Part shown: piece after piece, positions 4,053-8,295 of the stretch
Position numbering within the stretch: the first letter of the stretch is position 1
Layout of the letters: every line of letters begins with the position of its first letter
From: Candidatus Latescibacterota bacterium
GTDB taxonomy: Bacteria > Latescibacterota > UBA2968
Direction: 5' to 3'
Assembly: GCA_022824945.1 (NCBI GenBank)
Contig: JAJDYX010000056.1
Span: forward strand, 1-64,000
DNA: 64,000 nucleotides
Notes under the pieces: generated by a model
Told to the model about the DNA's origin: nothing
Database searches by the model: none
Seen by the model: the letters and a program-made list of their open reading frames with translations, nothing else
Program-made: the position numbers and the translations under genes

Positions 4053-4952
4053 CTATTTCTTTTCTGCGCCAAAATGATCCATCTCGCCGCGATCGATCCA
4101 ACCCGGCAATCTAATCTTCTCCGACATCTTCCACGCCGTCAAATAAAGCGAAACCGTAAAACCCGCAGCTCTCTTTGCATGCTTCTCCGCAAAAGCGCGC
4201 ACCGCAGGCTCATTCTTCCAATCCACATCTTTTGGAACGAGATACTGCTCCATCGACAGCGCGGACTCAACCTCTCCAAAACTCCTGTGCATCTGCGCCA
4301 CAATACCCGTCATCAAACTATCCACAGGCACAGCAGTCAAGCCCTCGGCAATATCTTCGGGTTTCAAATCCAAATTCTGAAGCAACCCATCAATCTTTTC
4401 GTGAATACGCGTCCTCGAAGACTTGCCATCTACTACGCGACCATTCCAGTGAATCGTCAGATTCAGAGGTTGACAAACTTCCTGAGCAAAATGCGCGACA
4501 TACCCGGCGTATATCAAACACTTATTTTGAACAAACGGACTCTCGGGCCACCTGCGAAACTCCGCAAATGCCAGAGCCAGTTGCTCCGTATATTCCGCTG
4601 TCGCGTACGGCAACAACCCCACCTGCTCTGGCTTCTTCCCCAACTCTGCACACAGCCTGCCAAACTCGTACCGCGACGCGGGCAAATCCTCCGCTTCAAA
4701 CAACTCCATATTAAAATAATGAACTGGATGACCTGCCTTCTCCAGATGAAGCGTACCGCGATTCTTCGCAACATCCGGATCAACCGCCGCATGAGCCACC
4801 ATACCTGCACCAGCCCTGAGAAAAGCAGGTGCATCTGGCGGAAGAGCCTGAACAGCCGCCCGTGTCAAAATGCCATGTCCTCGCGGCCACCAGCCCCATG
4901 CCGAAGACCCAAATACAAACAGTACCAATAAAACCATACCCAATCGACGCAT
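4053..4952 (-). CDS. secreted zinc phospholipase C / S1-P1 nuclease-like protein, copy 1
   Basis: Exported protein of 299 residues with an N-terminal signal peptide ending near WGWW. Mature-end Trp and a nearby His (WWPRGHGILT) are typical of the trinuclear-zinc phospholipase C/P1 nuclease fold, where the N-terminal Trp ligates zinc. The central GYVAHFAQEVCQPLN motif, near residue 150, carries the H-x3-E/D ligands, and a further H-W follows. Starts at an ATG with GGAG 8 nt upstream. A second gene of the same family lies just upstream at 5109-6002, so this is a tandem duplication separated by a repeat cluster. Whether it cleaves nucleic acid or phospholipid cannot be decided from sequence. Confidence 0.72.
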   Translation of the reverse strand: MRRLGMVLLVLFVFGSSAWGWWPRGHGILTRAAVQALPPDAPAFLRAGAGMVAHAAVDPDVAKNRGTLHLEKAGHPVHYFNMELFEAEDLPASRYEFGRLCAELGKKPEQVGLLPYATAEYTEQLALAFAEFRRWPESPFVQNKCLIYAGYVAHFAQEVCQPLNLTIHWNGRVVDGKSSRTRIHEKIDGLLQNLDLKPEDIAEGLTAVPVDSLMTGIVAQMHRSFGEVESALSMEQYLVPKDVDWKNEPAVRAFAEKHAKRAAGFTVSLYLTAWKMSEKIRLPGWIDRGEMDHFGAEKK

Positions 4953-4964
4953 CGATAATCTCCT

Positions 4965-5103
4965 TGAATGAATAGACGAATAGACGAACCCCGCCCCACC
5001 ACCCAAAACCTCTGGATTGCGGCTAAAACCCTGCCGCAATGACGGCTTTCATGTACATTACCTGCTTCATTGATTCATTGATTCGTTGATTCGTTGATTC
5101 GCG
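4965..5103. repeat. intergenic repeat cluster: tandem units flanking an interspersed palindrome
   Basis: Three parts are visible. At 4968-4987 the unit GAATAGAC is tandemly repeated. At 5004-5045 lies one copy of the interspersed palindrome, with arms GGATTGCGGC and GCCGCAATGAC. At 5066-5102 there is a TGATTCGT tandem repeat. The same ordered arrangement, with near-identical sequence, recurs at 27222-27388, so the composite block was copied as a unit. No coding sequence is seen. Confidence 0.85.
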
Positions 5104-5108
5104 CTTTT

Positions 5109-6002
5109 CTACTCCCCGTCCCAAACCTCTCGCTTCACATAATCTGCAATCTCCAAACGCTCGGACAAACGCCAGGCAGTCAAATAAAGCCGCGCAGTAA
5201 ACCGCGTTGCAGCGCGGGCACGATCTTTTGCAAAAGCGATCACCTCGGCATTCGGTACCCAATTCTCCTCATCATATCTGGGAATATACGGTCCCAATTC
5301 ATAAACCCGGTCAACCATTGCAAACCCCTTCTCAAACTCCCGCATAATCTCAGACATCACATCATCAAAAGGCGTCACATCCTGATCGCGCGATAAAACC
5401 CCTGGCTCCATCTTCAAAAACTGCACCAGACCATCCACCTTCTGGTGAATACCCCTCTGCAACTTCTCGCCTCCCTCTTGCACGCGCCCATCATAGTGAA
5501 TCGTCAAATGCAAAGGCTGACACATATCCTCGGCATAGTGCGCGAGAAAACCCGCATAAATCAGGCACTTGCTCTGAATATGCGGATTATCGGGCCACTT
5601 GCGAAACTCTGCAAAAGCCACCGCCAAACGCTCTGTCCACTCATTCACCGCATAAGGCACAAAACCCATCTTCTCGGGCGACACCCCGTGCTCATAACAC
5701 AACTTGACAAACGCATATCGACTATCGGGCAGCGTCTCCACATCGAGCATCTCGCGATCCAAAAAATGCTCGGGATACTCTGCCCCTCGCACCTGCGGTG
5801 TTCCCCGATTCTTGCCCATATCCGGATCAATACTCAAATGTGCCACCGTCTTTGCCCCCTGCCTGAAAAACGCCGGGACCTCATCGGGCAACGCCGCCAC
5901 AGCGGACAAAGTCAAAATATGATGCCCTTCCAGCAACCAGCCTCGAGCGGGGGAACACAACCCTGCCAAAAGCAAAACAGAAATAGCAAATCGTTTGATC
6001 AT
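5109..6002 (-). CDS. secreted zinc phospholipase C / S1-P1 nuclease-like protein, copy 2
   Basis: Paralogue of the gene at 4053-4952, 297 residues. It has a signal peptide ending near ARGW, so that Trp would become the mature N-terminus, followed by LLEGHHILT. The zinc-ligand segment GFLAHYAEDMCQPLH lies near residue 150; this copy keeps the AHYxxDxxQPLH form more faithfully than copy 1. A strong RBS (AGGAGG) lies 5 nt before the ATG at 6002. Upstream is a tandem CAGGATG repeat and an interspersed palindrome. It probably acts in the periplasm or outside the cell; the substrate is not known. Confidence 0.74.
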   Translation of the reverse strand: MIKRFAISVLLLAGLCSPARGWLLEGHHILTLSAVAALPDEVPAFFRQGAKTVAHLSIDPDMGKNRGTPQVRGAEYPEHFLDREMLDVETLPDSRYAFVKLCYEHGVSPEKMGFVPYAVNEWTERLAVAFAEFRKWPDNPHIQSKCLIYAGFLAHYAEDMCQPLHLTIHYDGRVQEGGEKLQRGIHQKVDGLVQFLKMEPGVLSRDQDVTPFDDVMSEIMREFEKGFAMVDRVYELGPYIPRYDEENWVPNAEVIAFAKDRARAATRFTARLYLTAWRLSERLEIADYVKREVWDGE

Positions 6003-6029
6003 TAATACCTCCTGTAAAACCACAGTCAG

Positions 6030-6141
6030 AATCAGGATGTGCAGGATGAAAGGATGGACAGGATGAAAATCAAAAACCAAAACCTCTGGATTGCGGCTTT
6101 AAGCCTGCCGCAATGACGGGCGAGACATGCCTCGCCCCTAC
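6030..6141. repeat. tandem CAGGATG units, interspersed palindrome and GC-rich half-palindrome
   Basis: At 6030-6067 short CAGGATG-type units repeat with about 10-nt spacing; a very similar block is at 44064-44107. At 6078-6119 lies a short-form copy of the interspersed palindrome (arms ATTGCGGC and GCCGCAAT). It runs directly into 6118-6141, a slightly mismatched version of the perfect palindrome found at 41897-41918. No gene is present. Confidence 0.8.
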
Positions 6142-6181
6142 AATGGATAACTAACCACTTACTGCTGTCACACATAAAGAC

Positions 6182-6210
6182 AGCGGAGAAACTCAAAAAG
6201 TTTCTCCGCT
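6182..6210 (-). terminator. stem-loop downstream of tRNA-Sec
   Basis: A perfect 12-bp inverted repeat (AGCGGAGAAACT / AGTTTCTCCGCT) with a 5-nt loop lies 9 nt beyond the CCA end of tRNA-Sec on the minus strand. The T-rich run after it is weak (GTCTTTAT), so it is either a factor-independent terminator or a 3'-processing or stabilising hairpin. Confidence 0.6.
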
Positions 6211-6218
6211 ATCAAAAA

Positions 6219-6316
6219 TGGCGGGAATGTGTGGGAATCGAACCCACCTAGCGTGGGGTTAGCACGCAACAACGGGTTTGAAGCCCGCGGGGGACACCAG
6301 TTCCCCATCCACTCCC
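6219..6316 (-). tRNA. selC: tRNA-Sec (anticodon UCA)
   Basis: A 98-nt gene that folds as a selenocysteine tRNA. The acceptor stem begins GGGAGUG and pairs with CAUUCCC, followed by a G discriminator and encoded CCA. The D arm has an extended GGGG/CCCC stem. The anticodon arm is CGGG-CUUCAAA-CCCG with UCA as anticodon. A long variable arm pairs GCGUG with CACGC, and the T arm is GUGGG-UUCGAUU-CCCAC. The product is charged with Ser, converted to Sec and delivered to in-frame UGA codons by SelB. It starts 2 nt after the selD stop codon and is therefore probably processed from the selD transcript. Confidence 0.95.
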
Positions 6317-6318
6317 AA

Positions 6319-7362
6319 TCACGCTCGTACCTCAATTTCACCGGAATGTTCTGCAACCACCTCGCCAATATCTCGCGCCATCACACCGCGATCGTCCAAC
6401 GACTCAAGAAAAGCATCAGCCACATCGGACGCAAGTGCAATTAACAGGCCACCAGAAGTCTGCGGATCAAAAAACAAACGCCTCAAAGCCTCGTCAACAT
6501 CATCGGCAAATCTCACCGCATGCCCTCGCGCTGCCCGATTGCGCCGCAAACCACCGCCCTCGCGCCCCTCTGCAATCTGCAAAGCCAGATCAAAACGCGG
6601 CACATCAGAAGCGCGAATGCGAAACCCAACGCCACTTGCCTGTGCCATCTCCAACCCATGCCCCAGCAACCCAAACCCGGTAATATCCGTACACCCATGC
6701 GCTTTATATGCAACCATCTCCTCGGCTGCGATGCGATTCAACTGCACCATTGAATCCACGGCAATCTGCAAATCATCTTCATCGATCTCACCATTTTGAT
6801 AGGCATCCGACATCAAACCCGTACCCAGCGGCTTCGTCAAAAGGAGACAATCGCCCACCCGCGCACCTGCATTGGTCTTCACATCGTCTGGGTGCACAAC
6901 CCCCGTCACAGACAAACCGAACTTGGGTTCCACATCCTCCACAGAATGCCCACCGACCAGAACCGCGCCGGCCTCCGCCACCTTCTCCTGTGCCCCTCTC
7001 AAAACCTCGGCAATCACCTCTGGCGCGACATCATCACTTGGAAACCCGCAAATATTCAGCGCAGTAATCGGACGCCCCCCCATCGCATACACATCGCTCA
7101 GCGAATTGGCTGCCGCAATCTGCCCATACGCATGCGGATCATCGACAATAGGCGTAAAAAAATCCACCGTCTGAATAAGCGCCGTATCCTCAGAAATCCG
7201 AAACACACCGGCATCATCAGCCGTATTCATCCCCACCATCAAATCGGGATGCGCCACCTGTGGCAACTTTTTCAAAATCACATCCAGCACCGCTGGATCG
7301 AGTTTCGATGCTCAACCACCGCAACTGACGAGTTGGGTCAATCTTTTAGCGCGATACTTCAT
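6319..7362 (-). CDS. selD: selenide, water dikinase, itself a selenoprotein (Sec17)
   Basis: Makes selenophosphate from selenide and ATP, the Se donor for Sec synthesis. The full gene begins at the ATG at 7362 and reads through an in-frame TGA at 7312-7314 (codon 17), giving 347 residues, the normal SelD length. The TGA sits in SCGG-U-ASKLDP, where SelD has its catalytic Cys or Sec and following Lys. Calling from the first ATG after the TGA (7290) would lose that centre. ATP-binding motifs follow (TVDFFTPIVDDP near residue 58, GCTDITGFGLLGHG near 213). A SECIS-like hairpin lies just after the TGA. The start overlaps the redoxin stop as ATGA, and tRNA-Sec follows by 2 nt. Confidence 0.95.
7282..7314 (-). 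promoter_or_regulatory. bacterial SECIS element in selD
   Basis: Immediately after the TGA (7314-7312, minus strand) lies a perfect 7-bp hairpin, AUCCAGC-GGU-GCUGGAU (7298-7282). The apical loop begins 20 nt beyond the TGA and carries GGU. Bacterial SECIS elements bind SelB within the coding region just downstream of UGA, and this position fits. Seen in sequence; function inferred. Confidence 0.8.
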
Positions 7363-8189
7363 TTTTTCAATTCCTCATCTTCTCTCGCCATCTGTTCCTT
7401 TTGCCAGCGATAATCAACCTTACCATCGTAAAACATCCCGGGATTCTCTATTGCCCACAACTGCTTTCGAATCAACCAATTCTTCGGATCCAGAGCATAA
7501 GCGCGTTTTAATTCTGCAATAGCGTCTTTGCGCTTGCCCTGTTTTAGCAACGCAATAGCGCGCTGAAATATTGCATCGGCCTCCCGCTCATCCGCAGTCA
7601 GCGCGCGGGGTTTCGCACCCTTATCCCCATCGCGCCAGGCTCCAGGAATAGCCCCCGATGTTATCCATTCAACCAGTTCTCCGCGCAGGGTCTCATTGTC
7701 AATATTAACGCTACCAACAGCGCGGACAAGTCGCCCTTCTTCATCCACAAAAATCCCAACCGGCACGAATTTGACATTATACGCTTTCCCAATCGCGTTA
7801 TGCTGATCCAGCAATGCACGATATGTGCCACCGGCTTTTTCAACCCAGGGTCTGGCAACCTCGGCACCCTGAGCATCCTGAGCAATAACCACCACCTCAA
7901 TCTGTTCACCGTACTCATGATAAAACGCTTGCCATCCAGGCAACTGAGCGCGGCACCCTCACCAGGACGCCCACATAAAAAACGCCGTCTTCTTCCCGAG
8001 AAAATCACTCGAAGAAATCATCTCCCCAGAGTACAAATCCGGCAGTGTAAACGCAGGCGGCGCCTGCCCAATACTCAGGCCAACATCATTCAATTCAGGC
8101 TCCAAAGTCTTCACAGATTCCTCCCCGGACAGAATATGAATAGGGATGAGTACACTCACCAGGATCAATACAAATACTATTTTCTTCAT
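7359..8189 (-). CDS. secreted redoxin selenoprotein (Sec77) with C-terminal TPR-like region
   Basis: Thioredoxin-fold protein of 276 residues, TlpA/AhpC-like. It has a signal peptide (residues 1-21), then GQAPPAFTLPD, then the active site WASW-U-GCRAQ with an in-frame TGA at 7959-7961 as codon 77. The resolving Cys follows after one residue (U-G-C), and a cis-Pro segment KFVPVGIFVD comes near residue 138. The last 80 residues look like a TPR-type helical repeat. Read separately, the two halves would be a truncated leader and a redoxin without its N-terminal strand, so Sec insertion explains both. Its stop overlaps the selD start (ATGA). Probably a periplasmic thiol/selenol oxidoreductase or peroxidase; the partner is unknown. 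Confidence 0.9.
7929..7961 (-). promoter_or_regulatory. candidate SECIS element in the redoxin gene
   Basis: Downstream of the TGA (7961-7959) a 5-bp stem UUGCC/GGCAA with a UGGAU loop spans 7943-7929. The loop starts 21 nt past the TGA, matching the spacing in selD and in the deiodinase-like gene. The stem is shorter than in selD, so this is moderately supported. Confidence 0.62.
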
Positions 8190-8262
8190 CTTATATCCAA
8201 TCTAACAGAATTTGAACAACACACAAGCCCGTCTTCATCTCATATCCGAACCCGTGAACACC

Positions 8263-8295
8263 AAGCCGCTCGGCAATCATCTCACCGAGCGGCTT
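8263..8295 (-). terminator. stem-loop between msrP and the selenium operon
   Basis: An 11-bp perfect inverted repeat (AAGCCGCTCGG / CCGAGCGGCTT) with an 11-nt loop lies 26 nt past the msrP stop on the minus strand. No T-run follows. It probably separates msrP transcription from the redoxin-selD-selC operon. Confidence 0.5.

Follow-up and report, generated by a model that had tools for sequence, protein, structure and literature searches.

The window (the whole 64,000-nucleotide stretch analysed here) comes from a metagenome-assembled genome (MAG) of a Latescibacterota bacterium, G000, whose 57 contigs total 5.49 Mb, with completeness put at 98.01 and contamination at 5.98%. Three elements lie head to tail on its minus strand: a redoxin selenoprotein gene, selD and selC, the last beginning 2 nt (TT) beyond the selD stop. 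The initial annotation had placed them in this way, ATGA overlap and 2-nt gap included, and proved correct to the base. The features of the locus, all on the minus strand, are listed below from 5′ to 3′.

8263-8295, minus strand: hairpin ahead of the redoxin gene, in the interval that parts it from the molybdopterin oxidoreductase gene further upstream (-24.9 kcal/mol; 9/10 genus loci)
8197-8214, minus strand: conserved block directly 5′ of the redoxin ATG, a possible promoter (by-eye alignment)
7359-8189, minus strand: redoxin selenoprotein gene, 276 codons plus stop (stop TGA at 7361-7359)
7961-7959, minus strand: in-frame TGA, redoxin codon 77, presumed Sec (WASW-U-GCR) of the U-G-C active site
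7928-7944, minus strand: SECIS-like hairpin 3′ of the redoxin TGA, with covariation at the Leu83/Gln87 codons and a weak folding-energy signal
7362-7359, minus strand: ATGA, the redoxin stop overlapping the selD start (10/10 genus loci having redoxin)
6319-7362, minus strand: selD, Sec-containing selenophosphate synthetase (TIGR00476), 347 codons plus stop (stop TGA at 6321-6319)
7314-7312, minus strand: in-frame TGA, selD codon 17, presumed Sec (SCGG-U-ASK); TGA in 40 and Cys in 6 of 46 SelD rows
7282-7298, minus strand: SECIS-like hairpin 3′ of the selD TGA, 7 pairs, loop GGT
6219-6316, minus strand: selC, tRNA-Sec with anticodon TCA, 98 nt including the encoded CCA (ARAGORN, RF01852)
6179-6213, minus strand: terminator-like hairpin 3′ of selC (-25.6 kcal/mol; in 12/12 loci printed)

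SelD scored 377.5 bits against TIGR00476 (cut-off 125), and selC scored 73.3 bits against Rfam RF01852 (gathering score 47, E 4.1e-13), ARAGORN also reading TCA as the anticodon. Profile search of the genome found selA and selB adjacent to each other on another contig, C52, both above their cut-offs; together with selC and selD they complete the Sec machinery. The window's unit is not a selABC operon, in which selA and selB share a unit with selC.

The TGA at redoxin codon 77 was followed across the phylum and beyond. A redoxin orthologue was present in 21 of the 64 genomes of the phylum search set (the window's genome counted). These orthologues are 51-100% identical over the match, and each has exactly one in-frame stop, which in all 21 is the TGA at codon 77. 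A 22nd copy, in G060, carries TAG and then TGA, and looks broken from its sequence; it lies at L064:4006-4275 on the minus strand, 3′ of a same-strand selD of TCG-U-AAK type, with a long run of N ahead of it. In a scan of the GTDB species collection, 157 loci were confirmed and 80 of them kept; at the Sec site these have Cys (40) or TGA (39) or are uncovered (1), counts biased toward the UGC-type motif because WASWCGCR and RKQ(L/M)WA(I/V)(E/D) served as seed peptides. The SelD counts listed above refer to 46 aligned phylum rows out of 47 genomes with SelD above the cut-off, the SelD of G044 having been dropped as its match spans profile positions 126-310 only. In redoxin and SelD alike, the in-frame TGA thus occupies a conserved redox position held by Cys in homologues, as in selenoproteins.

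Codons 3′ of the redoxin TGA showed more synonymous than non-synonymous differences in all nine congener comparisons (36 versus 19 in the most divergent congener, L050). No such synonymous excess was seen in the 40 codons ahead of the TGA (4 to 7 in L049, 5 to 4 in L044). It is scarcely credible that codon 77 is a true stop and redoxin a pseudogene or two separate genes. TGA does double as the stop codon of both redoxin and selD, and the distant G060 copy, with TAG beside TGA, appears broken; yet TGA stands in every intact orthologue, Cys replaces it in 40 homologue loci, change 3′ of it is mainly synonymous and the Sec machinery is complete. Assembly error at codon 77 was rejected on the same 21 of 21 count. 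The initial annotation had read both TGAs as Sec and had named a residue other than Cys or Sec, or a true stop, in orthologues as evidence to the contrary; the orthologues have TGA and, elsewhere, Cys, and the aligned Sec/Cys homologues, the downstream hairpins and the presence of selA, selB, selC and selD in the genome all support its reading. The locus is a compact case of dual decoding: within 2 kb, UGA stands for Sec twice and for stop twice. All four would sit on the presumed single transcript. Where the stop TGA of selD and the start of the tRNA-Sec gene meet (window positions 6316-6321), the TGA is followed, at about the SECIS distance, by a hairpin formed by the D-arm of the tRNA.

In both window hairpins, the apical loop begins 21 nt past the UGA. 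Folding energy was tested by comparing each region with recodings that use the gene's own codon usage, and with control windows. The selD hairpin gave a mean z of -1.61, against -0.33 in control windows, with negative values in 39 of 40 sequences and p <= 0.05 in 16 of 40, and a SECIS-like hairpin is accordingly recognized in selD. The redoxin hairpin set matched 45 of 49 sources; L064 (TAG beside TGA) and the Cys forms L093, L106 and L107 were left out. Here the energy signal was weak (mean z -0.62, control -0.25; negative in 30/45, p <= 0.05 in 6/45), and the stem covaries. Base 1 of codon 83 and base 3 of codon 87 were C-G in 28 rows, U-A in 12, U-G in 4, A-G in 1 and C-A in none (n = 45), and the next pair was G-C in 23, A-U in 12, G-U in 1, G-G in 8 and A-A in 1, counts which are not independent since the rows are related. 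The U-A form is shared by the ten rows of the genus with L091 and L104, two rows that sit apart from them in the other Sec group of the redoxin tree. Stem variants are mostly synonymous Leu/Gln choices; L063, with Lys for Gln, and L087, with Met for Leu, disrupt pairs of the stem.

Redoxin scored above the Pfam cut-offs for AhpC-TSA and Redoxin, with TPR models slightly below theirs, and its layout is that of a ResA/TlpA-like domain followed by a TPR-like tail. Its structure was predicted from an alignment (A2) that set the window's redoxin beside 30 of the 80 loci (mean pLDDT 87.3; residues 1-35 below 50), and residue 77 immediately precedes helix 78-93. The nearest solved structures found by Foldseek were ResA and relatives, the best being 2h1b (E 2.4e-11, TM 0.83 on the target), so that the fold is that of the ResA/TlpA thiol-disulfide oxidoreductases. 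Redoxin shares this fold with Bacillus ResA but differs from it in having U-G-C (U-x-C, one residue fewer) in place of the C-x-x-C active site, and in its added C-terminal helical domain. The N-terminus looks, by eye, like a signal peptide; most orthologues outside the genus have an open frame extending ~100 residues further upstream than in the window, and in G019 this extension scored 23.8 bits against Cu_amine_oxidN1, just below the cut-off of 24.2. Redoxin is probably a thiol-disulfide oxidoreductase of the ResA/TlpA-like type that is exported from the cytoplasm; Sec would attack and the Cys two residues on would resolve. The papers and models consulted gave no function for the family, and ORF lists, inspected by eye, around eight redoxin loci that lie away from sel genes suggested no common partner.

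The closest redoxins among database records (87-93% identity) are six MAG records, five from Latescibacterota/Latescibacteria and one from Gemmatimonadota. Membership of NCBIfam NF041054 (WAxxUGC_long) was rejected: the window's redoxin scored 144.4 bits, below the curated cut-off of 300, which none of the eight relatives given reached either. The Cys homologue L106 came nearest with 261.1 bits, the others ranging from 136.0 to 162.9; for L082, L106 and L112 the matched part alone was scored. A redoxin tree was built from 78 of the 80 loci plus the window (79 rows), L108 and L113 being excluded because their match begins past residue 60. Sec forms made up two groups, one of 16 Latescibacterota rows and one of 23 rows that are mainly from Chloroflexota, both lying to the same side of a well-supported branch; two Sec/Cys changes are required, since the long-branched Cys row L093 adjoins the second group. 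L092, on a MAG contig labelled Nitrospinota, groups with Chloroflexota, its nearest row being L095, and is perhaps a mis-binned contig. In L063:6654-7316 (G028), Arg replaces the Trp before Sec (WASR-U-GCR) and the TPR-like part has a gap. In three of ten genus loci, ARAGORN placed a tRNA-Pro within the reading frame of redoxin (L045:6898-6989, L047:6500-6591 and L052:5272-5363), most likely false positives.

We then considered whether the three elements form one unit. Of 11 genomes searched in the genus, 10 have redoxin (the window's counted) and one, G038, lacks it. The synteny in relatives that the initial annotation had proposed to look for was found in all 10 redoxin-bearing genomes, with identical order, ATGA overlap, distance from selD start to selC (1046 nt) and 2-nt gap. 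The gene upstream of redoxin encodes a molybdopterin oxidoreductase (PF00174), and in L049 ~1.1 kb of other sequence occupies the place of the hairpin between the two genes. A stretch resembling the conserved block upstream of redoxin precedes selD in G038, as judged by eye. Since a generic scan found no more promoter and terminator sites than in shuffles (2 versus a mean of 2.2, and 3 versus a mean of 3.3), the one-unit claim rests on conservation. The scan returned no minus-strand promoter site near the redoxin ATG, and its three terminator-like sites were the hairpin 3′ of selC and both SECIS-like hairpins. On this sequence evidence, redoxin, selD and selC form a conserved head-to-tail unit with a conserved hairpin on either side, and they would share one transcript.

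The unit takes different forms in relatives. The order is selA-selB-redoxin-selC in G026, G027 and G028, and selB-redoxin-selC in G019, where the end of selA is on the same contig. G025 has selA-selB-redoxin-selD-selC, its redoxin ending with TAG ~50 nt before selD and without overlap. In the window's genus the order is redoxin-selD-selC, with selAB elsewhere in G000. G038, a congener assembled as one contig, has selD-selC but no redoxin; the 12 kb surrounding this pair yielded no remnant of redoxin and no molybdopterin gene. In G024, selD-selC is preceded by 256 nt to the contig end, with no redoxin in them. Overall, redoxin is linked to selC in 15 of 21 genomes; the two are on different contigs in G018, G044, G045, G051, G058 and G059, the redoxin contigs being short in G044 (3.4 kb) and G018 (8.7 kb). 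At the thresholds used, a sel gene or selC was found in the available flanks of 10 of 15 Sec-type loci inside Latescibacterota and of 0 of 24 outside.

The 13 SelDs adjoining selC formed one clade (SH-aLRT 99, quick search). The SelDs of G026, G027, G028 and G019 fell outside it, and lie elsewhere in their genomes. Distinct SelD lineages occur in the phylum (CGG-U-ASK, TCG-U-AAK and Cys forms), and close genomes differ in the type held. We conclude that the arrangement in the window is a lineage-specific remodelling of the classical Sec operon. As to the direction of the rearrangements, the ancestor would have been a larger selA-selB-redoxin-(selD)-selC operon, from which selAB would have split off in this genus.

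The most satisfactory explanation of the whole locus, and in our judgement very likely the right one, is a single redoxin-selD-selC transcription unit, derived from a larger sel operon, in a Latescibacterota bacterium that reads UGA as Sec. Transcription would probably start just 5′ of redoxin and end at the hairpin 3′ of selC, and the tRNA-Sec would be cut out of the 3′ end of the transcript. SelA and SelB would insert Sec at codon 77 of redoxin and at codon 17 of SelD, the hairpin 3′ of each UGA directing them. SelD and tRNA-Sec would supply the cell at large, two or more further selenoprotein candidates included.

These candidates came from a search covering PF00384, PF10262 and redoxin relatives. 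Outside the window, G000 has a PF00384 molybdopterin oxidoreductase gene at C23:275996-277264 and a SelW-like PF10262 gene at C36:46189-46407, each with one in-frame TGA, and TGA-containing candidates of both families are likewise present in G037 and G038; the view that the operon contains the entire selenoproteome was rejected on these genes. Other redoxin-like matches with one in-frame TGA, possibly further selenoproteins, were found at G034:C120:631-972, G037:C1:3180161-3180619, G027:C27:231502-231933 and G061:C49:48986-49414.

The initial annotation had also proposed that the operon couples the supply of Sec parts to a product that needs them. A shared transcript is probable, but a private supply line for redoxin is not upheld, because selAB are on another contig and G038 keeps selD-selC without redoxin; nor do selD and selC serve redoxin alone, since the genome has at least two further TGA-containing selenoprotein candidates. 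As for the positive dependency it saw in a SelD that itself needs Sec, SelD is indeed of the Sec type, but any SelD of that type needs Sec for its own synthesis.

A stronger form of coupling would act in translation. Through the ATGA overlap, translation of selD might depend in part on ribosomes that have passed UGA77 of redoxin. With little Sec-tRNA, ribosomes would halt at codon 77, ~600 nt before selD, and less SelD would be made; with Sec present, SelD would rise. If so, selenophosphate synthesis would be self-amplifying with selenium and fall without it, and the operon would be a selenium-sensing switch with positive feedback. This agrees with the overlap in all 10 genus loci that have redoxin, and with the requirement for Sec of both the upstream and the downstream protein. 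We nevertheless consider it unlikely: selD has its own Shine-Dalgarno-like sequence, GAGGA, and so could be expressed independently; the overlap is missing in G025; and in neither G038 nor G024 does a redoxin gene immediately precede selD-selC, so that in G038 selD must be expressed without redoxin. Simple clustering, in which the shared transcript is inherited from an older sel operon and the position of redoxin has no regulatory meaning, appears probable to us. Gene order varies freely in relatives, with or without selD, selAB and redoxin; 6 of the 21 genomes have redoxin and selC in separate places; and redoxin is missing from G038, where selD-selC are retained. Against clustering speaks the strict preservation, in 10 of 10 genus loci, of the 2-nt gap and the ATGA overlap, though close kin would keep both by descent anyway.

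Comparison with known systems indicated that the parts (UGC redoxin, Sec-type SelD and tRNA-Sec) are known and that the redoxin-selD-selC arrangement is a variation on known sel operons. The U-G-C site, which the initial annotation had called unusual, is a published family trait and was rejected as a novelty: the available excerpts describe ‘Prx-like (UGC-containing)’ selenoproteins in 2008, with 46 sequences and 855 Cys homologues (PMC2398784), and a ‘UGC-containing TlpA disulfide reductase family protein’ in 2026 (PMC13188914). By description, these resemble the window's redoxin in their AhpC/TSA or TlpA-type domain, in the UGC site and in having Cys homologues; those excerpts do not describe a location within a sel operon, as is found here. 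Nor did searches of the open-licence PMC literature yield a description of a UGC redoxin inside a sel operon.

The nearest parallel in the excerpts is the fdhA selenoprotein gene beside the selA-selB-selC operon of Alpha-, Beta- and Gammaproteobacteria (PMC1794560). There, too, a selenoprotein gene lies next to or in a Sec-decoding operon, and selC ends the cluster, as in the Latescibacterota relatives; it differs in that the selenoprotein is a formate dehydrogenase, whereas here it is a UGC redoxin, with a Sec-type selD before selC and selAB elsewhere. As far as the excerpts go, a Sec-type selD is likewise linked to other sel genes in Photobacterium profundum, beside selAB (PMC1273633). The tRNA-Sec gene is similarly packed against or into a coding gene in Alphaproteobacteria, where selC is nested in selB, and selAB are apart from selCD, as here, in Sinorhizobium meliloti, split by a transposon (PMC8124441). 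selABC operons with unusual tRNA-Sec are also on record (PMC5330540). Compared with what is described in PMC1273633 and PMC8124441, selC here lies 2 nt after selD and does not overlap it, and the first gene of the unit encodes a redoxin selenoprotein. One bacterial class documents the remodelling of a sel operon: redoxin has a place between selB and selC, the SelD next to selC is of another lineage, selAB are split off and one congener is without redoxin. Such cases lend themselves to asking if regulation is altered when the supply operon itself holds a product that needs Sec.

Finally, two look-alike adjacent genes lie 3′ of selC on the minus strand, at window positions 4053-5039 and 5109-6080. 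Neither gave a Pfam match at 1e-5; both have a W..GH motif close to the start, and both are kept in G038 and G025.
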